From Oscillospiraceae bacterium (GTDB lineage Bacteria; Bacillota; Clostridia; Oscillospirales; Ruminococcaceae), in NCBI GenBank assembly GCA_017462785.1, contig JAFTQJ010000061.1, positions 1 through 32,843 on the forward strand: DNA of 32,843 nt, given 5' to 3'. Under the pieces are notes generated by a model that saw only the letters and a program-made list of their open reading frames with translations, had not been told where the DNA came from and did no database searches. The translations under genes and the position numbers were made by a program. Below, piece after piece: positions 893-32,724 of this stretch. Position 1 is the first letter of the stretch; each line of letters opens with the position of its first letter.

Positions 893-968
893 TGGAGCGG
901 ATTACGAGGCTCGAACTCGCTACCTCCACCTTGGCAAGGTGGCGCTCTACCAGATGAGCTAAATCCGC
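893..968 (-). tRNA. tRNA-Gly (GCC)
   Basis: 76 nt on the minus strand. The acceptor stem GCGGATT pairs with AATCCGC, the anticodon loop TTGCCAA gives GCC (Gly), the T-loop is TTCGAGC and the 3' CCA is encoded. It is the last gene of the four-tRNA operon. Confidence 0.96.
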
Positions 969-975
969 ATTGAAT

Positions 976-1051
976 TGGTGCTTCCGGGCGGAATCGAACC
1001 GTCGACACATGGATTTTCAGTCCATTGCTCTACCGACTGAGCTACAGAAGC
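976..1051 (-). tRNA. tRNA-Phe (GAA)
   Basis: 76 nt on the minus strand. Acceptor GCTTCTG pairs with CGGAAGC (one G-U), the anticodon loop CTGAAAA gives GAA (Phe), and CCA is encoded. The T-stem GACGG/CCGCC contains one A-C mismatch at its second pair, which is unusual but does not disturb the rest of the cloverleaf. Confidence 0.94.
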
Positions 1052-1057
1052 ATCAAT

Positions 1058-1134
1058 TGGCGACCTGGATGGGACTCGAACCCACGACCTCCGCCGTGAC
1101 AGGGCGGCGTTCTAACCAACTGAACTACCAGGCC
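1058..1134 (-). tRNA. tRNA-Asp (GTC)
   Basis: 77 nt on the minus strand. Acceptor GGCCTGG pairs with CCAGGTC, the anticodon loop CTGTCAC gives GTC (Asp), the T-loop is TTCGAGT and CCA is encoded. Confidence 0.96.
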
Positions 1135-1141
1135 AGATTTA

Positions 1142-1217
1142 TGGTGGGAGCTACAGGGCTCGAACCTGTGACCCTCTGCTTGTAAGGCAGATGCTCTCCC
1201 AGCTGAGCTCAGCTCCC
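1142..1217 (-). tRNA. tRNA-Val (TAC)
   Basis: 76 nt on the minus strand. Acceptor GGGAGCT pairs with AGCTCCC, the anticodon loop CTTACAA gives TAC (Val), the T-loop is TTCGAGC and CCA is encoded. It is the first tRNA after the operon promoter. Confidence 0.96.
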
Positions 1218-21457: not shown

Positions 21458-21473
21458 ACGCTTCGGTGTTTTT
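21441..21473 (+). terminator. Terminator overlapping the RHH stop codon
   Basis: AAAACACCG/CGGTGTTTT stem, extended by GAG/CTT, with TTT following. The TGA stop (21455-21457) lies in the loop. The following stretch 21474-21577 holds no gene. Confidence 0.75.
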
Positions 21474-21577
21474 GCTGCAAAGAATGCACCGGCTCCGGTC
21501 GGGGGGCAATCCCCCATGCTTTCAGATCCTCCCCTCCCCGAAAAGTCAAAACATCACTTTTTTAATAAGATATGCTA

Positions 21578-21606
21578 TTGACAACGCATGCATGATGCAG
21601 TATAAT
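21578..21606 (+). promoter_or_regulatory. Promoter of the dockerin arabinanase gene
   Basis: Perfect TTGACA (21578-21583), 17-bp spacer and TATAAT (21601-21606). The spacer contains GCATGCATGATGC, a palindrome-like run that could be a regulator site. Confidence 0.85.
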
Positions 21607-21663
21607 TGTAACTGTAATATGAACAATTCTCGGAAAGTAACAAATATGAAAGGAGTTCATTTT

Positions 21664-24378
21664 ATGAGGGGAATTTTGAAAAGAAGTGCGGCTTTCCTGC
21701 TTGCCGGTGCAGTTGCCGCATCCTCCGGCATTGCCGGCATCATCGGCTCTGCGGCAAATCACGCAAGAGTGGCAGTCCATGACCCGTCCATCTACAAGAT
21801 GGAGGACGGCAGTTATTTTATCATCGGCTCGCATTTAGGTGCGGCGACCTCTCCGGATCTCGGCAGCTGGACGCATGCTGCGAATTCTGCCGCAGGTACG
21901 AAGAACACCACATTCTTCAAGGACATCTACACCGACCTTGCAGTTCCGGCAGCATGGTCATCCCCGTCCAATGCAAATTATGACCTCTCCGGCAATCTCT
22001 GGGCACCGGATATTATCTGGAATCCGGAGCTTGGCAAATACTGCATGTACCTGAGTGTCAACGGCGACAACTGGAAATCCTCCATCGTCATGTGCACAGC
22101 GGACAATATCGAGGGTCCGTACACCTATGTGGATACCGTGGTATACTCCGGCTTCAACAACAGCGACACGTTCCACTATTCCAAGACGGATGTGGAAAAG
22201 GTGCTCGGCAGCAATCCCGATATTTCCCGCTACCTTTCCAACGGTGAATGGAATGCCAACTACGGCACGAATGCCATTGATCCGGCGGTGTTCTATGATG
22301 AAAGCGGTGCACTGTGGATGGTCTACGGTTCCTGGTTCGGCGGTCTGTTCATGCTGGAGCTTGACGAAAGCACGGGTCTGCGTGATTATCATGTGACCTA
22401 TCAGACCGTGAACAACGCATCGGATGCCTACATGGGCATCAAGGTCGCAGGCGGTCACTGGGTATCCGGTGAAGGCCCGTACATTGAGTACATGGAGGAT
22501 CCGGAAACGGGCAAGGGCTATTACTATCTCTTCGTTTCCTATGGCTGCTTCAACAATGACGGCGGCTACAATATGCGTGTGTTCCGCAGCGACTATCCGG
22601 CAGGTCCCTATGTCGATCAGAACGGCAACTCCGCTGTGTACACCTCCGGCGGCAACAATATCGGCGGCAATATCGGCATGAGGCTGATGAGCAATTACAA
22701 GTGGAACTGCAATGACAGACCGAACAAGGCACAGGGTCACAATTCCCTGCTGATGGATGATGACGGCAAGCTCTTTGTGATCTATCACAACAAATTCGAC
22801 GATGCCTACGGCTTCCATGAGGTGCGTGTGCACCAGCTCCTGATGAATGAGGATGGCTGGGTGAATGCGGCACCCTATGAATATGTACCGGGTGAGGAAG
22901 TTTCCGCTGCCGGTCATACGATGGAGGCAGTCACGGGTGAATATGAATTCATTTTCCACCAGCTGAACCAGACCATTGTGGATGATCAGGTAACCAGCGG
23001 CAACAATGCGGAGGTGGAATATTCCCAGAATATCACACTGAATGCGGACGGCACTGTTACGGGCGATATTACCGGCACATGGACAATGGCGGAGGATTCT
23101 GCGGACATGACCCTGACCTATGACGGCGTGACCTACAAGGGCAGCTTCATTGTGCAGGCGGATGAATCGGCGGAGATGGTGCAGAAGATGACGTTCACTG
23201 CATCCGGCAACAATACCTGTGTATGGGGCAGCAAGAAGGATGCCTATGTATTCTCCGAGGATCTGAAGGATGCATCCAATGCGGAAAGCAAGCTCACCTA
23301 TGCACCGCAGACAGCACAGCATCCCACGGACTACTCCAGACTTTCCGGCACGGAGCTTCTCTCCGGCGTTTCCTACTATATTACGAGCAAATTCAGCGGC
23401 ATGGTGCTTGACCTTGCAGGCGGAGCAACGGAGGACGGCACGGGGATCCAGCAGTGGAACAGGACGGGCGGCAGTCATCAGGAATGGCGTATCTGTGCGG
23501 TGGATGAGGAATACTGCAAGATCGTTTCTCTCTCGGACGAATCGAAGTGCATCGGCGTGCAAAACACAACGGAACCGGGAGCGAAGCTTGCAGAATTGCA
23601 GACCTACACGGGCGAGGACAGCCAGCTGTGGAAGATCGTGCAGGACGGTGCATTCTATGGTATCATTTCCAAGGCAAATGATAACGCAGGACTGGACGTT
23701 TACGGCTGGTCGGACGAAGCCGGCGGCGAGATCGCAATCTATGATTTCTGGGGCGGCGGCTGCCAGCTCTGGAATCTGGAGCCGGTCTGCCCGAGCGTTC
23801 CGGACGGCAGCTACATGGTGAAGAACGTTAACAGCAGCCTGTTCATGACCCTGCAGAACAATGTGAACGCAGCACAGGGAATTCCCCATGCATGGAAATT
23901 CACGAAGCAGGAGGACGGCACCTATCTGATTCAGGCAGAAAACGGCGAATATCTGACTGTGTATGAAAATGCGGCGGATGACGGGCTGAATATCGGCGTG
24001 GAGGAGTTCGACGACAGCGTCGGTCAGTATTTCAGACTGCACTGCAATGCGGACGGTTCCTATGTCCTGCTCACAGAATCCTCCCACGGCAAGTCCTGTG
24101 CGGATGTATTCGAGATCAGCACGGAGCCGAATGCGAACATCTGCCAGTGGAATTACTGGGGCGGCGACGGACAGAAATTCATCCTCGAACCGGCGGGCAG
24201 ACCTGATGGTGATGTGAATGCGGATGATAGTTTCAACATCAAGGATATTATCATGATGCAGAAGCATCTGCTCGATGCCGGCAGCATCGTGGACTGGATC
24301 GCAGGCGACATCGACAACAGCAACAGCATCAATGCATTTGATCTGGCAATGATGAAGAAAATGCTGCTTGCAAAATAA
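21664..24378 (+). CDS. Secreted GH43 endo-arabinanase with ricin-type domains and dockerin
   Basis: 904 residues from ATG 21664 (AAAGGAG upstream). A signal peptide (1 to about 31) leads to a GH43 five-blade propeller of the endo-1,5-alpha-arabinanase type: base Asp40 (VHDPSIY), NLWAPDIIWN, Asp206 (NAIDPAVF) and acid Glu270 (SGEGPYIEY). A beta-sandwich like the C-terminal domain of Abn2-type arabinanases follows (about 430-550), then two ricin-type beta-trefoil regions (about 565-705 and 715-840) that would bind sugars. It ends in a type I dockerin (848-904) with two calcium loops, DVNADDSFNIKD and DIDNSNSINAFD. It would cut pectic arabinan while docked on a cellulosome scaffold. Monocistronic, with its own promoter and terminator. 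Confidence 0.93.
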   Translation: MRGILKRSAAFLLAGAVAASSGIAGIIGSAANHARVAVHDPSIYKMEDGSYFIIGSHLGAATSPDLGSWTHAANSAAGTKNTTFFKDIYTDLAVPAAWSSPSNANYDLSGNLWAPDIIWNPELGKYCMYLSVNGDNWKSSIVMCTADNIEGPYTYVDTVVYSGFNNSDTFHYSKTDVEKVLGSNPDISRYLSNGEWNANYGTNAIDPAVFYDESGALWMVYGSWFGGLFMLELDESTGLRDYHVTYQTVNNASDAYMGIKVAGGHWVSGEGPYIEYMEDPETGKGYYYLFVSYGCFNNDGGYNMRVFRSDYPAGPYVDQNGNSAVYTSGGNNIGGNIGMRLMSNYKWNCNDRPNKAQGHNSLLMDDDGKLFVIYHNKFDDAYGFHEVRVHQLLMNEDGWVNAAPYEYVPGEEVSAAGHTMEAVTGEYEFIFHQLNQTIVDDQVTSGNNAEVEYSQNITLNADGTVTGDITGTWTMAEDSADMTLTYDGVTYKGSFIVQADESAEMVQKMTFTASGNNTCVWGSKKDAYVFSEDLKDASNAESKLTYAPQTAQHPTDYSRLSGTELLSGVSYYITSKFSGMVLDLAGGATEDGTGIQQWNRTGGSHQEWRICAVDEEYCKIVSLSDESKCIGVQNTTEPGAKLAELQTYTGEDSQLWKIVQDGAFYGIISKANDNAGLDVYGWSDEAGGEIAIYDFWGGGCQLWNLEPVCPSVPDGSYMVKNVNSSLFMTLQNNVNAAQGIPHAWKFTKQEDGTYLIQAENGEYLTVYENAADDGLNIGVEEFDDSVGQYFRLHCNADGSYVLLTESSHGKSCADVFEISTEPNANICQWNYWGGDGQKFILEPAGRPDGDVNADDSFNIKDIIMMQKHLLDAGSIVDWIAGDIDNSNSINAFDLAMMKKMLLAK

Positions 24379-24429: not shown

Positions 24430-24681
24430 TCACTGCATCCTGCCGCAGATCTCACCGAATCTTGCACAGATCGCTCCGTAATTCTCCCGTCTGTGCGGAT
24501 ACAGACAGCCGGAACAGTCCTTGGTGCCGTCCGGCAGGATGGTGAATGCACCGCCGCATTCCGTACCGAGCACATACAGCGGACAGTAGCAGAACAGACA
24601 GTTGAAATCCTCCGGATCCGCCCCCTCATGGCAGGGAAAGCATTCACAGCTTTTATGTGAAAAATATTGATATTCCGGCAT
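24430..24681 (-). CDS. Cysteine-rich small protein (metal-binding), last gene of the ECF operon
   Basis: 83 residues with eleven Cys, including CECFPC, CLFCYC and CSGC, from ATG 24681 with GGAGGG upstream. It matches the Cys-rich small-domain family (PF04071-like), a probable metal-binding module. Similar Cys-rich segments are fused to the cobalamin-synthesis enzyme CobD in some archaea, which fits a corrinoid locus. It starts 8 bp after the S-component gene. The exact role is unknown. Confidence 0.7.
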   Translation of the reverse strand: MPEYQYFSHKSCECFPCHEGADPEDFNCLFCYCPLYVLGTECGGAFTILPDGTKDCSGCLYPHRRENYGAICARFGEICGRMQ

Positions 24682-24689
24682 ATTCCCTC

Positions 24690-25376
24690 CTAAACTCCAT
24701 ATTTGATCCTGATCCTCTCAAGCTTCTCCCCGAAGGGCTTGGCAAGCCAGAACAGGAACAGGAAATTGGACACGGCATAGAGCACCAGATGCGGCAGGGA
24801 AGCCAATATTTTGGCGAGATACAGCTGAAGATCGAACCCCTCCCCGTACCAGAGCACCGTCCATACATCCATGATCATCGAATAGAGCACACCAGCCAGC
24901 AGACCGGTGCACAGAAGCAGTGCACGGCTCCGCTTCAGCGGCTCCGCCATTGCTCCGGCAATCCAGCCGATCAGCCCCCACGCAAGCATCTGGAATGCCG
25001 TCCACGGTCCCTGTCCGAAGTAGAAATTCGACAGAAGTGCCGCCATTGCACCGGTCAGAAAACCGGCTTCACTGCCGAGGTACATTGCCGTCAGCATAAT
25101 GACCGCCGTCACGGGCTTGCAAAGGGGGATGAAGCGTCCGGCAATGCACAGTGCCGTCATGATCGCAGTGAGCACCAAACGCCGTGTTCCGGTCTTTTTT
25201 CGTTCGATGCCAGCCAGAAAGAGAAGCACGGACAATGCCGCCGCCGCAAAGGAAATGAACAGATGCCGCCTCTCTCCGAAAATGACCGCCCCCGCAATCA
25301 CGAGAGCAGGCAGGAGCACAAAGGGAATTGCCCATCTGAGGACATTTTGAAGCATGCGGTTTCGGATCATGAGCAT
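24690..25376 (-). CDS. ECF transporter S component, probably cobalamin-type
   Basis: 228 residues with about six hydrophobic segments. I chose ATG 25376 because AGGGGG lies eight bases upstream; ATG 25370, overlapping the ATPase stop as ATGA, is the alternative. The core segment (LTAIMTALCIAGRFIP, then GSEAGFLTGAMAALLSNFYFGQGPWTAFQMLAWGL, quoted here only in part as recognised motifs GQGPWT and QMLAWG) matches vitamin S components. The S component gives substrate specificity. Corrinoid specificity is inferred from the upstream riboswitch and the transcobalamin-like neighbours, not from its own sequence. Confidence 0.8.
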   Translation of the reverse strand: MLMIRNRMLQNVLRWAIPFVLLPALVIAGAVIFGERRHLFISFAAAALSVLLFLAGIERKKTGTRRLVLTAIMTALCIAGRFIPLCKPVTAVIMLTAMYLGSEAGFLTGAMAALLSNFYFGQGPWTAFQMLAWGLIGWIAGAMAEPLKRSRALLLCTGLLAGVLYSMIMDVWTVLWYGEGFDLQLYLAKILASLPHLVLYAVSNFLFLFWLAKPFGEKLERIRIKYGV

Positions 25377-27004
25377 GATGCAGACCCCCTTTTCCCGTTC
25401 TGCCGGCACAGGGCGGCGGCATCCTCCACCGTTACGGCATTGTCAAAATGCCCCCTTGTCATGCGGCTTGCGGCGGTCGTGTAGAAACTGCTTTCGGAGA
25501 AGAATTTCCTCGGCATATCGGAGGAGATCACGTTCCCACGGAAAAAAAGTGCACATCTGTCCGCACATTCTGCGGCAAGCTCCGTATCATGCGTGACAAT
25601 GACGATGGTCAGCCCCTCCTCTTGCAGCTGCCGGAGAATGCCGGTCAGCCGCTGCTTGGCATGGGCATCCAGCCCCTTGGTCGGCTCATCGAGAAGGAGG
25701 AGTTTCGGCTTTCGGGCAAGCACCTTTGCCAGAGCACAGAGCTGCTGTTCGCCGCCGGAAAGGTCGTAGGGATGCTTGTCATAGAGGTGATGCAGGTCAA
25801 AGGGGAATGCTTCCGCACCTGCCTCCTCCAGCTCCTCACGGACGGTATTTTTCAGAAAAACGGTCTGCACGTCCTGCGGAAGTGCCGCAAGGCAATGGTC
25901 ATAGAGCGAATGGTTTTTGTAGTCTTTCAGGCGTTTTCCGAATACACGGATGCTCCCTGCACAGGGCTTGTGCAGTCCGGCGGCGGCATGCAGGGCGGTG
26001 GTCTTGCCGGAGCCGTTGCCGCCGAGGATGCAGAAGATCTCCCCCTCCTGCACCGTCAGGCTCAGATCCGAGAGCACATCCGGCAGATGCCTTTCATAGC
26101 GGAAGAACACATTCCGGAATTCCAGAGCTGCCGGCTTTTGCTCCGGCGGCTCTTGTTCGGGGAGCGTGCGGATATGGTCGGCATAATGCGTTTCGAGGAA
26201 GTCACGCCCCTCACGCACGGTCAGCGGACAGACCGCACCGGCATCAAGGGTACAGAAAAGCCTTGCGGCGGCAGGCATCGCACAGAGAAGCTCCGGTTTT
26301 CCACGCAGGGAAGCGATCGCCTCACGGGGGGGAGCATCGTGCAGGAGTGCCCCGTTTTCCATCACCAGCAGGCGGTCACAGATGGGGATGATGTCCTCGA
26401 GCCGGTGTTCGGCAATGAGAATGGTCAGAGAAAAGTCCGTGCAGAGCCGCCGGAGCGTGGTGATAAAGTCCGCCGCTGCGATCGGGTCGAGCTGTGCGGT
26501 CGGCTCGTCGAGGATGAGGAGATCCGGCTGCATCACCATCACAGCGGCGAGGTTGAGCAGCTGCTTCTGACCGCCGGAGAGCGTGGACACATCCCTGTCA
26601 AACCAACGCTCGATCCCGAACCAGCTCGCCATCTCCGCAATGCGTCTTGCAATGGATGCCTGCGGAACATGGAGATTTTCAAGCCCGAACGCCAGCTCGT
26701 GCCACACCTTGTCGGTCACGATCTGCTGTTCGGGTCTTTGCATGACAAAACCGATTCGGGCGGCAGCATCCCTCTCGGACAGGGCGGAAAGCTCCGTGCC
26801 CCTGAACCGGATCGTGCCGCTGAATTCCCCCATCGGTGTCAGCTCACGCTTGAGCAGCCGCAGGAGGGAGGATTTTCCGCTGCCGGTCGCACCGCACAGT
26901 GCGATGAATTCGCCCCTCTGCACGGAAAAACTCACGTTCCGCACGGCTGGTGCGGTGCATTTGGGGTGGGTAAAGCTCACATTTTCGACAGAAAGCAGTG
27001 CCAT
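25367..27004 (-). CDS. Fused double ATPase of an ECF transporter (EcfA-EcfA')
   Basis: 545 residues holding two complete ABC ATPase domains in one chain. Domain 1: Walker A GATGSGKSS (38-46), signature LSGGQKQ (142-148), Walker B LLILDEPTA. Domain 2: Walker A GGNGSGKTT (328-336), signature LSGGEQQ (about 418-424), Walker B LLLLDEPTKG. Most ECF modules have separate EcfA1 and EcfA2; the fusion suits a dedicated transporter. The start at ATG 27004 has AAAGGAGG upstream. It overlaps the ecfT end by 28 bp and the S-component start by 10 bp. Confidence 0.92.
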   Translation of the reverse strand: MALLSVENVSFTHPKCTAPAVRNVSFSVQRGEFIALCGATGSGKSSLLRLLKRELTPMGEFSGTIRFRGTELSALSERDAAARIGFVMQRPEQQIVTDKVWHELAFGLENLHVPQASIARRIAEMASWFGIERWFDRDVSTLSGGQKQLLNLAAVMVMQPDLLILDEPTAQLDPIAAADFITTLRRLCTDFSLTILIAEHRLEDIIPICDRLLVMENGALLHDAPPREAIASLRGKPELLCAMPAAARLFCTLDAGAVCPLTVREGRDFLETHYADHIRTLPEQEPPEQKPAALEFRNVFFRYERHLPDVLSDLSLTVQEGEIFCILGGNGSGKTTALHAAAGLHKPCAGSIRVFGKRLKDYKNHSLYDHCLAALPQDVQTVFLKNTVREELEEAGAEAFPFDLHHLYDKHPYDLSGGEQQLCALAKVLARKPKLLLLDEPTKGLDAHAKQRLTGILRQLQEEGLTIVIVTHDTELAAECADRCALFFRGNVISSDMPRKFFSESSFYTTAASRMTRGHFDNAVTVEDAAALCRQNGKRGSASCS

Positions 27005-27834
27005 CGGATCGCCTCCTTTGCTTCGGTCATCACCGGCAGGAGCACCAGAATTCCATAGGAAATCAGACTGCAAACAGCTGCCGGAGAATGGACGGATACG
27101 GTAAATCGGGGGTAGAAGCTGTGGTCGAGTGCCCCCAGCCCTGCAAGGGTGAGGGCGGTGCACAGCAGGCTCAGGCTCAGAAGCAGGACATCCCCACGGC
27201 GAAAGCGGAAAATGGCGAATTGCGTCCGTTTTCCGATGCCGTAGCCCCTCGCCGCCATGCTGTCAGCGGTGATGATGCCGTTTTCAAGTGCCCATGTCAG
27301 CAGAATGGAGAACACACGCAGATGATCACGCAGACGATCCTCTCTGTAAAGTCCGAGGGCTTTCTGTGCCTGTGTGATCTTCTTCGCCTGTGTACCAAGC
27401 AGGGCCACATACCGCATTGCCATCGAAAGGACGAGGGCAAGCTTCGGGGAAAGCCTGCCGCAGACATAGAGGAGCTTGTCACGGGTCATGAGCCTTGAAA
27501 AGCTGCGGAACCAGCAGAGCACCGCCAGCATGGAGCAGGACGCAAAAACGCCGTAGATCAGAGCTTCCAGCGTGACGGGGTTGTGGTTGAGCACAAAGAG
27601 CACGGTCACGCCGCTGTGGGAGAAAAGGGGATTGAGCAGGGCAAGGAGGACGAACAGCCCGAGCGTAAACAGGGAGCTTTTCAGAGCAAAGCCCCCGTGC
27701 AGGAGGCACAGGAGCAGTGCTCCGGCAAGGGAAATGAGCGTTACTGCCGGATGCATACAGAACATGGCAATGCCGGAAACAGCGAAGAAATATACCGTCA
27801 GTACAGCCGGATTGTGATCGGAAAAGCCCCTCAT
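26977..27834 (-). CDS. ECF transporter transmembrane component EcfT
   Basis: 285 residues with several N-terminal and C-terminal transmembrane segments around a cytoplasmic coupling region. The Ala-Arg-Gly motif that binds the ATPases is in SMAARGYGIG (195-197). The start ATG 27834 overlaps the stop of the preceding gene (ATGA), which suggests translational coupling. Together with the fused ATPase and S component it forms a complete vitamin importer. Confidence 0.92.
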   Translation of the reverse strand: MRGFSDHNPAVLTVYFFAVSGIAMFCMHPAVTLISLAGALLLCLLHGGFALKSSLFTLGLFVLLALLNPLFSHSGVTVLFVLNHNPVTLEALIYGVFASCSMLAVLCWFRSFSRLMTRDKLLYVCGRLSPKLALVLSMAMRYVALLGTQAKKITQAQKALGLYREDRLRDHLRVFSILLTWALENGIITADSMAARGYGIGKRTQFAIFRFRRGDVLLLSLSLLCTALTLAGLGALDHSFYPRFTVSVHSPAAVCSLISYGILVLLPVMTEAKEAIRWHCFLSKM

Positions 27835-29330
27835 CCCTCCACATCCTTTCCAAGATCAAGCGAATACAGCCATTCCACAAGGTCGCCGTCCGTGAGGACG
27901 TATTCGCCGCAGCCGACCGAGGGGGACGCACCATTGACATGGAATACCCAGCCGGACAGGTCGCCGCAATCGAATTCATAGAGGTCGGAAATGCCCTGTA
28001 CATAGGCAAGCTCCGGCGTACCGCTGTACTCGATGCGGATGCCCTCCGCTCTGGCGGCACGGGTCAGGGCATCAAAGGCGGTATCGCCCTGTGCAAGGGG
28101 GACTTCGGTAAGCCCCAGAATTTCGCCGTTTTCCGGAATATGATCCGCTTTGCCTGCCACGGTGTCACAGCGGATGGTGAGCTTCACGCTGCCGATGATC
28201 TCTTCCTCTGCAAGGCTCTCGGGCTGGTAGTAATCCTCCGCACTCTCGATCTGCACCAGCCACACCAGCAGGATACCGCCGGCGGCAAGCAGTAAAACAG
28301 TGAGGGCGGTTCTGCGTTTCTTCCGCAGAAACAGCACAATACAGCCGATTCCTGCCGCACCGAGAATGCATGCCGTAATGATGACACGGCAGTCTGGCGG
28401 GACGGCACGTCCGGATGTGCTCACAAGGTAGGGGTTGGTGTCCGCTTGCAGGGCATGGAGGGCGAAAAACACCTGTATATTGGCGTTCTGATTGACTGCA
28501 CCGCCCTCGGAATGGCTGAAGCTCCCATCCGCAAGGCGGTATTTTGCAATGCCGTCAAGAAGGGTGTTCCCGTTTTTCACAAAACGCTCATCCGTCAGCG
28601 GTTCGATGCCGAGGGTATGCAGGGCAAGGAGCACCTGTGCGGTGCTTTCGGGATTCGGCACGCCGTAGCTTGCAAAATCGCCGCCCTCGAGCTGCTTTTC
28701 CGAAAGAAGGGCAAGAGCACGGTCGATCTCTGCCGGATATTCGCCGTAATACGGTGCAAGTGCCTGCAAAGCCATAGCAGTGACATCCGCATCGCTCTGC
28801 TCCCCCGTCAGTGCCCAGCCGCCGTCCGCAAGCTGGAGGGAGAGGAGGTTCTGTACAACATCCTGTGCGGTGTACTGACTGCCGGTACAGCCGCTGTTCA
28901 GCAGATGCAGACCCCAGACCCAGCTCATGATCCCCATCTCACCGATGGAATTTCCCATCGTTTCGGCAATATACGCTTCACCGCCGCCAACGCAGAGATA
29001 GGCAAGGGCATATTTCTGTGCGGTCACGGCACTGGTGACTGTGTTTTCTGCAAGATAGGCATCGAGTGCCTTGGAATATGCCGAAAAATCGTAGTTTTCG
29101 GCATCCTGCGACAATGCGAGCACATACCATTCCGCCGTCATTCCGGCATTGTCCGCAAGTTCTCCGTCAAGCCAGTCCTGCACGGAATCCGCCCCATCCT
29201 GTGCAAGCTCATAGGCAAGTACGCCGTCGAGCAGCTCCTGTGCATCGGCGGCACTGCATGCAAGCGGTGTGAGCAGGGTGCACAGGAGGAGCAGGATCCC
29301 CAGAATTCCGGCAAATTGTTTACTTCTCAT
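27831..29330 (-). CDS. Transcobalamin-like membrane protein: alpha/alpha toroid plus DUF4430 domain
   Basis: 499 residues. A signal peptide (1 to about 27) is followed by an all-helical prenyltransferase/squalene-cyclase-like toroid (about 30-300) with QLADGGW (166-172) and LADGSF (266-271) repeats. Two transmembrane segments (314-335 and 341-360) flank a cytoplasmic RKKRR turn. A DUF4430 beta domain (about 380-492: GDTAFDALTRAA, SGWVFHVNG, DGDLVEWLY) ends the protein. Both globular domains would face outside. Alpha toroid plus DUF4430-like beta domain is the plan of animal transcobalamin and intrinsic factor. With the riboswitch and ECF genes this points to extracellular corrinoid capture (inference). 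Its start overlaps the preceding gene by 11 bp. Confidence 0.85.
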   Translation of the reverse strand: MRSKQFAGILGILLLLCTLLTPLACSAADAQELLDGVLAYELAQDGADSVQDWLDGELADNAGMTAEWYVLALSQDAENYDFSAYSKALDAYLAENTVTSAVTAQKYALAYLCVGGGEAYIAETMGNSIGEMGIMSWVWGLHLLNSGCTGSQYTAQDVVQNLLSLQLADGGWALTGEQSDADVTAMALQALAPYYGEYPAEIDRALALLSEKQLEGGDFASYGVPNPESTAQVLLALHTLGIEPLTDERFVKNGNTLLDGIAKYRLADGSFSHSEGGAVNQNANIQVFFALHALQADTNPYLVSTSGRAVPPDCRVIITACILGAAGIGCIVLFLRKKRRTALTVLLLAAGGILLVWLVQIESAEDYYQPESLAEEEIIGSVKLTIRCDTVAGKADHIPENGEILGLTEVPLAQGDTAFDALTRAARAEGIRIEYSGTPELAYVQGISDLYEFDCGDLSGWVFHVNGASPSVGCGEYVLTDGDLVEWLYSLDLGKDVEG

Positions 29331-30252
29331 GACGCTTGCGTGTCAGAGCCATGCCAGCCGCCGCAGTCAGGACAGCCGCCACGAGTGCGAAACCGGTCTT
29401 GTCACCGGAAGCCGGATTGGAAACGGCTGCGGCAGTGGTGGCAGTTGTGGTCTTGGCTGTGGTCTGTGCGGCTGTTGTGGTGTTCGTGGTTGTTGTTGTG
29501 GTCGTGGTGGTTGTTGTGGTGGTTTCCGGTGCGGCGGTCGTATCCGCAGTGGTTTCGGGTGCGGTCACTTCTGCCTTGCAGACGGGGGGCACGAGGATCT
29601 GTGTATCGGAAACGGCACTGAGCACGGCATTTCCGGCATTTTCAAGGGTCAGCGTCACCTTTCCCTGTGCATCGGTCAGGAATGCGGAAACTTCGCCGTT
29701 GATGGTGATGGCGGCACCCTCCACGGGCTTCTGGATGGGGTTCCAGTTTTCGTCATAGCCATTTGCGGTGAGGGTCAGGGTGAATTCCTCGCCGGACTGC
29801 ACGGAAACAGTGTTCACATCAAAATAGCAGTAAGCATCGGAAAATCCGGTCAGATCGGTATAGCAGTATGCATTGACATAGCTGCCATCAGCAATGGGAT
29901 CCTCCAGCGACAGGGCGGAGGCATGGTTCACACAATAGCCGTAGCCGCTGCCCTGCTCGATACCCCAGAGCTTGGTGATGCCAAGACCGAACTCGGTGCG
30001 GGAATTGCCGTAGCCGGCAGCGGCACCGCCGTCATAGTGGTTCTCATGGGCGAGGTACAGGGCATCATTGATGGTGAGTGCACCATCGCCGTCGGCATCG
30101 GTCACGGTGACGGGTTCAGCGGCGAGCACGAGTGCACCGGTATTGTCGGAGATGGTGACAAAGACCTCGGCGGAATCGGCAGCGGATGCGGAAAGGGGGA
30201 GTGCGGCTGTGAGTGCGAGCACGGCAGCGGCAGAAATCAGTGTTTTTTTCAT
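29320..30252 (-). CDS. Wall-anchored surface protein with beta domains and Thr-rich stalk, DUF4430-like
   Basis: 310 residues from ATG 30252, with GAGAGG upstream. Signal peptide 1-24 (SASA/AD). The first domain (about 27-145) has KLWGIEQGSGYGYCVN and DPIADGSYVNAY, resembling a DUF4430-type ligand domain, and contains an EF-hand/dockerin-like calcium loop DADGDGALTIND (52-63). An Ig-like domain (about 150-216) follows. A Thr/Ala-rich stalk (230-276) leads to NPASGDKTG (279-287), a hydrophobic segment and RKRHEK, a non-canonical sortase signal. It is probably the outermost corrinoid binder, displayed from the wall, but no ligand has been shown. The next gene starts within its last codons. Confidence 0.75.
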   Translation of the reverse strand: MKKTLISAAAVLALTAALPLSASAADSAEVFVTISDNTGALVLAAEPVTVTDADGDGALTINDALYLAHENHYDGGAAAGYGNSRTEFGLGITKLWGIEQGSGYGYCVNHASALSLEDPIADGSYVNAYCYTDLTGFSDAYCYFDVNTVSVQSGEEFTLTLTANGYDENWNPIQKPVEGAAITINGEVSAFLTDAQGKVTLTLENAGNAVLSAVSDTQILVPPVCKAEVTAPETTADTTAAPETTTTTTTTTTTTTNTTTAAQTTAKTTTATTAAAVSNPASGDKTGFALVAAVLTAAAGMALTRKRHEK

Positions 30253-30269
30253 GTGAATGACCTCTCTTT

Positions 30270-30470
30270 TCATGATTTTGCAGATTTGGGTGGTTTTACG
30301 CCGGCAGCTTCCAATGCCCTCGGCCACGGACCGAGGAATGCTTTCACGGCGATGACCTCACGCTCTGTGAAGTCGGAACGTTTGGGATAGCGGTTTTCGC
30401 CCCGCTCCTGCAATTGCCGGTATTTCTCCTGCAAAAGCGAGATGCAGTCCGATTTGGTGAACTTTTCCAT
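30270..30470 (-). CDS. Small HNH-endonuclease-associated-repeat-like protein
   Basis: 66 residues from ATG 30470, preceded by GAAGGAGG. The pattern (YPKRSDFTEREVIAVKAFLG, then PWPRALEAAGV) matches the helical repeat found beside homing endonucleases (HNH_repeat family), thought to bind DNA. Here it stands alone as the first gene of the riboswitch operon, 17 bp before the wall-anchored protein gene. No nuclease domain is present. It could be a local regulator. The family call is by eye. Confidence 0.65.
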   Translation of the reverse strand: MEKFTKSDCISLLQEKYRQLQERGENRYPKRSDFTEREVIAVKAFLGPWPRALEAAGVKPPKSAKS

Positions 30471-30534
30471 AAACACCTCCTTCAATGGTTTCGCATACAC
30501 AGACAAAAAAAGTGCCTTTTCATCGCCAAAGCAA

Positions 30535-30603
30535 CAAAAAAGCACAGCAATTTTCCACATCCGGAAAGGGGCACTCCCCCTCGGACATTTCCAACGGCTG
30601 CAC
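30535..30603 (-). terminator. Riboswitch-controlled terminator
   Basis: On the minus strand GTGCAGC (30597-30603) pairs, with two wobbles, to GCTGTGC (30542-30548). An inner stem, GTCCG-AGGGG with CCCCT-CGGAT, lies between, and TTTTTTG follows. Lying between the aptamer and the first gene, it is the likely expression platform; ligand binding would favour termination (inferred). Confidence 0.65.
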
Positions 30604-30610
30604 TTTTCAG

Positions 30611-30720
30611 ATCCAAAAATGCGGTTACCTGCATTGTCCGGCCGGTATTCCGACTATACGGCAGTGATGGCTGCGACGGATTTTCACCGAACTTCCCCTG
30701 TACCGGACTGCGAAATGGAT
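30611..30720 (-). promoter_or_regulatory. Cobalamin-type riboswitch aptamer
   Basis: On the minus strand GGGGAAGTTCGGTGAAAATCC (quoted in part: GGTGAAAATCC at 30678-30688) followed by GCAGCCATCACTG matches the conserved core of B12 riboswitches. A B12-box-like TGCAGGTAACCGCA lies at about 30619-30633. GTCCGG pairs with CCGGAC, and a closing stem ATCCA/TGGAT joins 30716-30720 to 30611-30615. The B12 box is one base shorter than consensus. The RNA would turn off the downstream uptake operon when corrinoid is plentiful. Confidence 0.85.
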
Positions 30721-30727
30721 TTTTTTC

Positions 30728-30756
30728 ATTATAGCATGGGAGAGGGGATTTGTCAA
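30728..30756 (-). promoter_or_regulatory. Promoter of the riboswitch/ECF operon
   Basis: On the minus strand a perfect TTGACA (30751-30756), 17-bp spacer and TATAAT (30728-30733). The start site falls at the first base of the aptamer. Confidence 0.88.
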
Positions 30757-31019: not shown

Positions 31020-31544
31020 ATGACGGAAGATGCAATGCGGCAAAGGGCGGTATATGACGAGTATTTCAATTATGTGTACGCCATCGTGCTGCGGATCCTG
31101 CATGACTGCGGCAGTGCGGAGGATGCCGAGGAATGCGTCATTGATACCTTTGCTGAGGTGCTCCCACGCCTGCATGAGATACAGGAACAGTCACTCAAGG
31201 CATACCTCGGAACCACCGCAAGACATAAAGCCCTCAATGCCGCCCGTGTGCTCCGGCGTGAAAACAGCCGGAATGTACCGATGGACAGCGTGCAGGAGCT
31301 GACAGCTCCGCAGATCGTCGAGGAGGCAGCGGAGGAAAACCAGCTCCGGCAGCTCCTGCTCCGGAAAATCACCGAGCTTGGAGAGCCGGACACCAGCATC
31401 CTCATTCAGAAATATTACTACGGCCGCAATTCCAGAGAGATCGCAAAGCTCACAGGACTGACACCGGCAGCCGTCAGACAACGCTGCACCCGTGCCGTCA
31501 AACGCCTGAAACAGGAGCTTTCCGGCTGGGAACTGATTTGGTAA
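31020..31544 (+). CDS. RNA polymerase sigma factor, ECF (sigma-70 family)
   Basis: 174 residues from ATG 31020, with AAAGGAGG upstream. Region 2 (YDEYFNYVYAIVLRILHD, then AEDAEECVIDTFAEVLP) and region 4 (SILIQKYYYGRNSREIAKLTGL, then AAVRQRCTRAVKRLKQEL; parts quoted) are the two domains of extracytoplasmic-function sigma factors. It lies 13 bp before the membrane-anchored gene, the usual sigma/anti-sigma pair. Confidence 0.93.
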   Translation: MTEDAMRQRAVYDEYFNYVYAIVLRILHDCGSAEDAEECVIDTFAEVLPRLHEIQEQSLKAYLGTTARHKALNAARVLRRENSRNVPMDSVQELTAPQIVEEAAEENQLRQLLLRKITELGEPDTSILIQKYYYGRNSREIAKLTGLTPAAVRQRCTRAVKRLKQELSGWELIW

Positions 31545-31557
31545 AGGAGGTCATCGC

Positions 31558-32724
31558 ATGAAACATAAGCGTCATATCAGCAGCATCCTGCAAAATGCTG
31601 ACGAACAGACCGCACAGCAGATCGCAGAGCTTTCCCCTCCGGCGGATGCCGAAACGAAGGAACGGCTCTATCAACGCATACAGGAACGAATGGAACAGCC
31701 CGTGTCCGTGACGGAGGAACGCTTCACCGTCAGAACGGTGCACCGTGCCCCTTGGGGGAAGATCACAGCGGCGGCAGCCTGCCTGCTCATTGCAGGAGGT
31801 GCGGCAGGCGGTGTGCTTCTCAGCGGAAGACCCGGCGGCACACAACCCCTTGCACCGGGACAGTCCGTGGCATCCACACAGTTTGCAGCATCCGAACAGC
31901 CCACAGCACCGCCGCAGCCCACGGATAAAATAAAGAAGGAGTGGACGCAGGAGGAGGTCTATGCACTGTGCATGGATTCCCTCGACAATCTGAGAAAATA
32001 CGGGCGATTTTCCTGCTCTGTGGCTAAGACGACCGCACAGAAAAATGCTCTCGTTCCGGAGCTTCAGGCGGAGCTGGAGCTGGATTTTGAAGCGGAGATC
32101 TATCACAGTGCCGCACAGTATACCATCTACGATCAGGAAACGATCACAATACAGAAAAATCAGTGGTACTATGCCGATGGATGCGAGCTACAGCTGTCCG
32201 AATGCCTGACCGACGATCATGCACAAGGAAAAGGTGTATTCAGCCAGCCGGAACAGAATTTTGTCCTGAGAGGCAGGGGCGGCAGTCCATCCGACTTCCC
32301 GATCAACACCGCATTTCTGATGGAAACCTATCTGTCGGATTTCAGCAAGTGGGAGGTCGTGGGCACGGATGTGTTCGACTATGTGTTCATCGAGGATCCC
32401 ACCACGAACATCACCCATGCAATGCAGCGTGAGTGCATCGTGCTGGAGCTTTCTGGGGATGTGTTCGGTGAGCAGTTCGGAAGCAGTAGTCAGGTAATGG
32501 TGGACGCAGAAATCGGCATGTGGCTTCAGATCGTCTATTATGATGCGGACGGCACTGTCAGCAGGACAAATCTCAACGACCTGAAATTCGGCAGTGATGC
32601 GGAAATCACGCATCCTTACAACATCGGGCAGGAGATCCTCAAGGGGGATTATGTCTTTGATACGGAGTATGAGCTGCCGGACAGCTATCTGAAACATCCG
32701 ATGGAGATGCACACAGAGGAATAA
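31558..32724 (+). CDS. Putative anti-sigma factor with one membrane segment and a large outer domain
   Basis: 388 residues from ATG 31558 (AAAGGAGG upstream). A cytoplasmic N-terminus of about 65 residues (helical, with LQNADEQTAQQIAEL) would hold the sigma factor. One transmembrane segment (68-89) follows, then a Pro/Gln/Thr linker and an extracellular domain of about 260 residues with beta-rich repeats (AQYTIYDQETITIQKNQWYY; YYDADGTVSRTNL). The outer domain loosely resembles the RseB/LolA-type sensor fold, but that is a guess. No zinc-binding anti-sigma motif is seen. Confidence 0.75.
   Translation: MKHKRHISSILQNADEQTAQQIAELSPPADAETKERLYQRIQERMEQPVSVTEERFTVRTVHRAPWGKITAAAACLLIAGGAAGGVLLSGRPGGTQPLAPGQSVASTQFAASEQPTAPPQPTDKIKKEWTQEEVYALCMDSLDNLRKYGRFSCSVAKTTAQKNALVPELQAELELDFEAEIYHSAAQYTIYDQETITIQKNQWYYADGCELQLSECLTDDHAQGKGVFSQPEQNFVLRGRGGSPSDFPINTAFLMETYLSDFSKWEVVGTDVFDYVFIEDPTTNITHAMQRECIVLELSGDVFGEQFGSSSQVMVDAEIGMWLQIVYYDADGTVSRTNLNDLKFGSDAEITHPYNIGQEILKGDYVFDTEYELPDSYLKHPMEMHTEE

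Follow-up and report, generated by a model that had tools for sequence, protein, structure and literature searches.

A cobalamin-riboswitch-controlled gene run of a Ruminococcaceae bacterium, predicted to import corrinoids through an ECF transporter with transcobalamin-like and wall-type surface proteins

The stretch of DNA analysed here, referred to as the window, comprises 32,843 nucleotides of contig JAFTQJ010000061.1 from an Oscillospiraceae bacterium (GCA_017462785.1; Ruminococcaceae in GTDB), whose genome measures 2.58 Mb and is 88% complete. Positions 30756-24430 of its minus strand hold a promoter, a cobalamin riboswitch, a terminator-like stem and then seven co-oriented genes, encoding a 66-residue HNH_repeat-like protein, a 310-residue wall protein, a 499-residue protein that joins an alpha/alpha toroid to a DUF4430 domain, the three parts of an energy-coupling factor (ECF) importer and an 83-residue Cys-rich protein. 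Two junctions have gaps of 17 and 8 bases and all others overlap; operon status is inferred from this packing, and the run reads as a single transcription unit. The operon is probably, at a probability of about 0.8, a riboswitch-controlled, high-affinity importer of corrinoids, the vitamin B12 group, and sequence comparisons lend good support to its predicted role in B12 import.

The run opens with a sigma-70 type promoter (30728..30756), TTGACA-17 nt-TATAAT, which agrees with the consensus at 12/12 positions, carries an extended TG and is the only perfect site among three promoter-like sites in a 751-base region for which shuffles give 0.7. The compact cobalamin riboswitch aptamer that follows (30623..30722) is shorter than the RF00174 model and matches it at 32.0 bits (cut-off 31.5; E 1.3e-4 for the window), a real but marginal match by which the riboswitch claimed in the original prediction, preceding seven packed genes, narrowly clears the threshold of the covariance model. 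At the corresponding position, several close relatives score above the threshold of the compact AdoCbl-II model (RF01689), and relatives exceed the thresholds of RF01689 or RF01482. Alignment of the window aptamer with seven other loci predicted 13 pairs, two of which have changes on both sides among the eight sequences. Between the aptamer and the first gene, a terminator-like stem with seven T (30512..30545) is the probable expression platform, an assignment resting on position because one such site was found where shuffles give 1.1 by chance; the 176 nucleotides downstream of the aptamer have a z of -3.1. DUF4430 and an above-cut-off cobalamin riboswitch meet at this locus and are matched nowhere else in the genome, where one further riboswitch match reaches 12.4 bits, below the cut-off.

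The ECF module encoded in the operon is complete, with EcfT, two ATPase domains and an S component, and each part of the full importer that had been proposed scores above its cut-off. EcfT, of the CbiQ family (285 residues; 26977..27834, minus strand), matches PF02361 at 28.0 bits (cut-off 25); the fused EcfA-EcfA' ATPase (545 residues; 25367..27004, minus strand) contains two ABC_tran domains and matches TIGR04520 at 316.2 bits (cut-off 315); and the CbrT-like S component (228 residues; 24690..25376, minus strand) matches ECF-ribofla_trS at 47.9 bits (cut-off 26.7). Among PDB sequences, 6FNP (E 2.5e-9) was the sole match to the S component below E 0.9, and a profile of 16 sequences, built like the other profile comparisons on a small alignment, found 6FNP at E 3.9e-17 and next 4hzu_S at 1e-3, which we take to be another S component. 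Family-model scans and the PDB search gave no match of the S component to CbiM-type families, and the reading as a cobalt transporter was dropped for this lack of likeness to CbiM. CbrT is the nearest among solved S components, 6FNP having been deposited as ECF-CbrT, a cobalamin transporter, according to the accessible part of the accompanying paper (PMC5997447).

The gene at 27831..29330 (minus strand) encodes the 499-residue protein, identified from Pfam matches and homologue comparison as a candidate tethered relative of transcobalamin. Its toroid (residues 25-300; 28431..29258) falls below the Pfam cut-off in the window protein itself (Prenyltrans, 14.9 against 26.5) and is clear with a profile of 39 relatives. 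A hydropathy scan places a two-helix transmembrane hairpin with RKKRR in its turn at residues 316-359 (28254..28385), and DUF4430 (PF14478, a transcobalamin-like SLBB domain) occupies residues 415-490 (27861..28088) at 56.3 bits (cut-off 23.8). The toroid precedes the SLBB domain in 15/15 homologues, which is the transcobalamin-type domain plan, in the right order, that the locus was first thought to encode. The same scan finds two strong hydrophobic segments between toroid and DUF4430 in 15/15 fused homologues and an additional N-terminal one in 14/15. With an N-terminal signal sequence and a hydrophobic hairpin, both domains would lie outside the cell, as a tethered transcobalamin.

The likeness to transcobalamin differs in strength between the two halves of this protein. 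A DUF4430 profile of 58 domains found four matches among solved chains up to E 10, all of them transcobalamin, the best being weak (5no0, E 0.11); in hhalign comparisons DUF4430 aligned to transcobalamin with 90.7% probability and a score of 47.1, which none of 150 column shuffles equalled (maximum 25.8). The toroid scored 31.9 against transcobalamin, again with 0/150 shuffles as good (maximum 23.8), at a probability of just 18.1%. The residues Asp176, Asn224 and Gln273, presumably transcobalamin contacts, look partly alignable to D182 and Q286 and were not used as evidence. Toroid and DUF4430 halves occur on separate proteins in many more distant relatives. Two further frames (L034:7884-9419 and L043:6908-8596) have a weak match, far below cut-off, to the NCBIfam 'SCO2321 family membrane protein', a hint that relatives of the toroid membrane protein may exist elsewhere.

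The 310-residue wall protein (29320..30252, minus strand; the listed frame of 335 residues starts upstream) has a signal peptide, two outer domains, a Thr-rich stalk and a C-terminal anchor. Its N-terminal domain (about residues 26-146) contains a conserved DxDxDG loop, and its second domain (about 146-232) is of a CarboxypepD_reg/Ig-like type visible below the Pfam cut-off in orthologues. The anchor consists of NPASGD (residues 279-284; 29401..29418, minus strand), which we take to be a sortase-type sorting motif, followed by a hydrophobic helix and an RKRHEK tail; relatives mostly have PxTGD, making the window's motif atypical. Six sortase matches above cut-off occur in the genome. The wall-type surface protein originally read here is borne out by the signal peptide, stalk, sorting motif, basic tail and these sortases, and the protein is predicted to be sortase-anchored. 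It has no Pfam family above cut-off, and its family has no relative among PDB sequences up to E 5. Alignment of the N-terminal domain with SLBB by hhalign ran end to end over 82-83 columns, longer than in any shuffle, at scores (16.3 and 14.7) that were equalled in 20/200 and 34/150 shuffles and exceeded by the reversed control (20.2 and 21.7); an iterated SLBB hidden Markov model (HMM) never reached this domain.

Across the family, wall protein and fused toroid protein keep company. Strong wall matches (E below 1e-90) occur in 14/197 family genomes, mostly draft assemblies in which counts of absence are soft, and these are exactly the genomes with a fused toroid-hairpin-DUF4430 protein at E 1e-59 or better, including three (G188, G139 and G028) in which the two proteins lie on different contigs. 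The other 30 of the 44 listed genomes have weak wall matches only (3.6e-9 or worse), mostly to the stalk and tail. Within the genus, 17/38 genomes gave a wall match and 16 were counted as orthologues, L138 being dropped since it matched at 93 bits over profile positions 126-265 only and has a different C-terminus. A home-made riboswitch model matched in the roughly 450 bases upstream of 14/16 orthologues, three of which (L122, L123 and L137) are training sequences of that model or identical to one; L132 and L134 lack a match, and L133 passes at only 20.3 bits. Rfam models independently exceed their threshold in 7/16. The riboswitch also precedes 7/9 wall genes that have no toroid gene next door in a short locus, such as that of L118.

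The means of surface attachment varies among the 16 orthologues. By inspection of the C-termini, with dockerins assigned also by HMM and Pfam, ten are sortase-type (NPASGD, PAATGD or PxTGD), one ends in a plain membrane helix and five end in a type I dockerin, these five being above the Pfam cut-off of 22.9 (25.1, 29.0, 26.2, 32.0 and 39.5 bits). The dockerin-ended forms (L137:170-1069 in G139, L129, L130, L131 and L135) all have a compact riboswitch match upstream. L127 with a sortase motif and L131 with a dockerin are sisters (100/99 support), are identical at 165/201 residues of the outer domains and each have an AdoCbl-II riboswitch scoring about 55 bits. The starred branches of the anchor tree require that the dockerin was gained or lost at least twice; in this tree rows were trimmed unevenly by pattern, the L034 and L123 rows are the same sequence and L114, cut by a contig end, is labelled 'membrane' by kinship with L041. 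That the outer domains stay conserved across this exchange of anchors fits a head with a function of its own better than a spacer.

The association of these genes extends beyond the genus. Relatives of the 499-residue protein were matched in 66 genomes, and 60 regions were fetched from 58 of them, leaving out the eight weakest (G045, G093, G078, G064, G030, G100, G097 and G157). DUF4430 and ECF genes lie on one strand within 4.5 kb in 43/60 regions, and 24/43 of these are preceded, on that strand, by an RF00174 riboswitch above cut-off. The count rises to 26/43 with RF01689, for which 10/60 regions were scanned (gaining L047 and L050), and to 29/43 with the home-made model, run on all 60 (gaining L046, L052 and L083, of which L052 is a training sequence). 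No riboswitch was found in the eight regions without a DUF4430 match. With 84 above-cut-off riboswitches in the 66 relative genomes, chance would on a rough estimate yield well under one such coincidence.

A possible course of corrinoid uptake can be drawn from these features. At low cellular corrinoid the terminator would not form and the operon would be read. The toroid and SLBB domains would both face outward, with the basic turn of the hairpin inside, and these hinged domains could close on one corrinoid, as those of transcobalamin do, directly over the S component; the latter would carry it inward powered by EcfT and EcfAA. The wall protein may form the outer part of the capture chain, either binding corrinoid itself or positioning the capture complex, giving a path from wall protein to hinged clamp to S component to cytoplasm. 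Imported corrinoid would feed a methionine synthase-like protein, recognised by eye from its translation, and the six other B12-binding matches of the genome; of these seven, five are above and two below the family cut-off. CbiC was not detected in this genome at its 88% completeness.

Several observations weigh against corrinoid import by way of a transcobalamin-like capture protein. The window aptamer lies just 0.5 bit over the RF00174 gathering score, the hairpin was called by a simple hydropathy scan, one genome (G072) has a contig-cut fused protein (E 6e-49) and no wall protein, and no riboswitch was detected in 14/43 DUF4430-ECF regions, several, not all, of which are cut by contig ends and 10 of which were left unscanned with RF01689. 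The closest solved sequences to the toroid are squalene-hopene (terpene) cyclases, with profile matches down to E 5e-24, and transcobalamin is absent among the best 60 of 69 toroid-profile matches to solved chains and among 18 whole-protein-profile matches up to E 1. The cyclase matches would fit a membrane-acting enzyme, related to terpene cyclases or prenyltransferases and without connection to corrinoids, and the retention of the first and third Asp of the DxDD motif (14/15 and 15/15 close relatives), whose role in cyclases we take as given, leaves some doubt. However, 15/15 close relatives have V, I, C or A at the fourth position of this motif, and none of 39 toroids has D there, so the refuting case named in the original prediction, a toroid aligning only to enzymes with catalytic residues, did not come about; with the fusion to DUF4430 and the ECF and riboswitch context, an enzyme is very improbable.

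The wall protein could instead be a structural or adhesive spacer that is merely co-regulated with the importer, as might be expected from its lack of a Pfam family above cut-off, of a PDB relative and of a reliable SLBB match, and from a second domain typical of surface stalks. This is a possible but rather doubtful reading given the strict co-occurrence with the fused toroid protein, the riboswitch directly upstream in most genus members, including most of those without an adjoining toroid gene, and the conservation of outer domains across a sortase-to-dockerin swap. As for the imported compound, complete cobalamin might not be what the operon takes up: cobalt is one alternative, and a precursor of corrinoids or a substrate for their remodelling, namely cobinamide or a different cobamide, is another. 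The uptake of cobalt and of precursors is likewise controlled by cobalamin riboswitches, the EcfT matches CbiQ, which is annotated for cobalt transport, and the last gene of the operon belongs to PF04071, presumably linked to cobamide synthesis. Both known B12 transporter families also import cobinamide, according to the accessible part of a gut genome survey (PMC6593275). The CbrT-like S component, having no CbiM-type match, argues against cobalt and leaves cobalamin and cobinamide unseparated; import of something other than complete cobalamin is on balance unlikely.

Cohesins and dockerins recur in related B12 gene runs. A cohesin search of six genomes found that in two of them, G183 and G150 (97% and 95% complete), all detected cohesins lie inside gene runs with B12 riboswitches, which suggests cohesin-dockerin corrinoid capture. 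The packed run of G183 (L139:208-18711 on G183:C26, minus strand) has two cobalamin riboswitches and encodes a DUF4430-FecR protein, a 1270-residue propeller protein and two dockerin proteins, together with two EcfT proteins, EcfAA, an S component and a PF04071 protein. Two cohesin stretches on another of its proteins add up to 30.0 bits (cut-off 24.1), and a third cohesin is below cut-off; all three cohesin matches of the genome lie here, one of them above cut-off by itself. One of the dockerin proteins aligns with the wall family over 70 columns (score 32.4, 0/150 shuffles as good) and is weakly like SLBB (25.7, a score given without shuffle control), a likeness to the wall family that is a lead only; a 112-residue protein of the run resembles the HNH_repeat-like protein by eye only. 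In G150 (L078:1674-7548 on G150:C4), an above-cut-off riboswitch is followed by a toroid-dockerin protein adjoining the protein with the single cohesin match of the genome, which the iterated SLBB model also matches (E 2e-9) and on which Pfam DUF4430 gives no match. Dockerins are also found on SLBB or toroid proteins in L035, with a riboswitch, and in L067, with ECF genes and no riboswitch found. In the other four genomes, cohesin matches lie on contigs apart from the listed toroid or wall loci. The window's genome is a probable cellulosome maker, because it has nine cohesin matches, five of them on one frame of 1347 residues.

On these comparisons the odds are about even that corrinoid capture in these gut bacteria works as a module for which cohesin-dockerin scaffolds can serve as the base, the window holding a sortase form, its sisters a dockerin-attached form, and two more distant relatives a dedicated 'B12 scaffold' that is not a cellulosome. 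G150 would be the clearest case, its toroid and SLBB halves being assembled non-covalently through cohesin-dockerin contacts. This interpretation is tempered by the single-cohesin genomes known in R. albus, as described in the accessible text of PMC6118326, and cohesin-dockerin pairs outside cellulosomes are known as adhesins from the part of PMC10553843 at hand. In the accessible portions of a few open-access papers that name both dockerins and cobalamin, no tie of dockerins to B12 uptake was met.

Two small proteins flank the structural genes of the operon. The 66-residue HNH_repeat-like protein (30270..30470, minus strand) scores 23.1 bits with PF18780 (cut-off 26) and has no Pfam family above cut-off; aligned in 11 loci, the window and ten relatives, it has a conserved motif, lies recurrently between the cobalamin riboswitch and the first structural gene, has a basic tail in relatives and is possibly a nucleic-acid-binding regulator. 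The 83-residue Cys-rich small domain protein at the other end (24430..24681, minus strand), with 11 Cys, matches PF04071 (zf-like) at 79.4 bits (cut-off 27), and its family adjoins importer genes also in L043 and L139. Convergent with the operon, a plus-strand gene at 21466-24378 encodes a GH43 enzyme with ricin-type lectin repeats and a dockerin. Divergent from it, 31020-32724 (plus strand) contains a sigma-70-family gene (regions 2 and 4) and then a 388-residue protein that matches no family above cut-off. Four tRNA genes cluster at 896-1217 (minus strand).

Corrinoids are nutrients under competition in gut and rumen, and little is known of how Gram-positive bacteria capture them at the surface. 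In the accessible part of a gut genome survey (PMC6593275), only nearly half of the auxotroph variants had relatives of known B12 transporters. The present locus offers a complete, testable candidate in which a membrane-tethered transcobalamin relative stands beside a CbrT-type importer under one riboswitch. The original prediction identified the riboswitch, the ECF importer, the domain plan and the wall-type protein, and missed the hairpin, the anchor swap and an earlier publication. According to the accessible text of that publication (Burroughs et al. 2007, PMC1796856), bacterial transcobalamin-like SLBB domains are fused to toroids, carry signal peptides and Gram-positive anchors, often share operons with a second extracellular SLBB protein and generally have CbiO/CbiQ genes alongside, in bacteria usually without B12 synthesis; B12 scavenging and a transfer to animals were proposed. 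The core idea of corrinoid scavenging is therefore not new. In contrast to the window, the portion of PMC1796856 at hand, which predates CbrT, has no occurrence of the word riboswitch, and the hairpin, the wall family, anchor swapping and cohesin-dockerin forms are not met in it. Searches of the open-access literature found neither the hairpin form nor the link to a riboswitch nor the wall family described, an absence that is weak evidence of novelty. With this locus, the proposal of 2007 that Gram-positive bacteria were the source of animal transcobalamin becomes biochemically approachable.

Among characterised transporters, ECF-CbrT of Lactobacillus delbrueckii is a near likeness, being an ECF importer with a CbrT-like S component for which ATP-driven cobalamin uptake was shown in the accessible part of PMC5997447. 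It differs in that L. delbrueckii CbrT shares its ECF module with FolT2, whereas the window has the module in the operon with EcfAA fused, together with predicted surface capture proteins and a riboswitch. In L. delbrueckii a cbrS gene adjoins cbrT, and the accessible part of a lactobacillus proteome (PMC9963975) lists an 'additional lipoprotein component of putative cobalamin ECF transporter' and, as a separate entry, a DUF4430 protein beside rtpR; some of these three may be one and the same protein. Human transcobalamin II and intrinsic factor share the N-terminal toroid and C-terminal SLBB domain, and the profile likeness, measured with transcobalamin and not intrinsic factor, covers both halves in the same order, although human transcobalamin is soluble and without a membrane hairpin, and its toroid likeness is weak (18% probability). 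BtuG is a surface B12 binder of Bacteroides, and DUF4465/BtuJ is another according to the accessible text of PMC13398666. Both resemble the present system in high-affinity B12 capture by gut bacteria, but DUF4465 is a beta-jellyroll and the terms ECF and transcobalamin are absent from that paper. The type I dockerins and cohesin scaffolds of Ruminococcaceae cellulosomes have glycan-cleaving enzymes as partners in the accessible part of PMC6118326, whereas relatives of the window have dockerin cargo under a cobalamin riboswitch; if the dockerin and cohesin versions hold, the scaffold assembly of plant-fibre digestion would also be used for vitamin capture.

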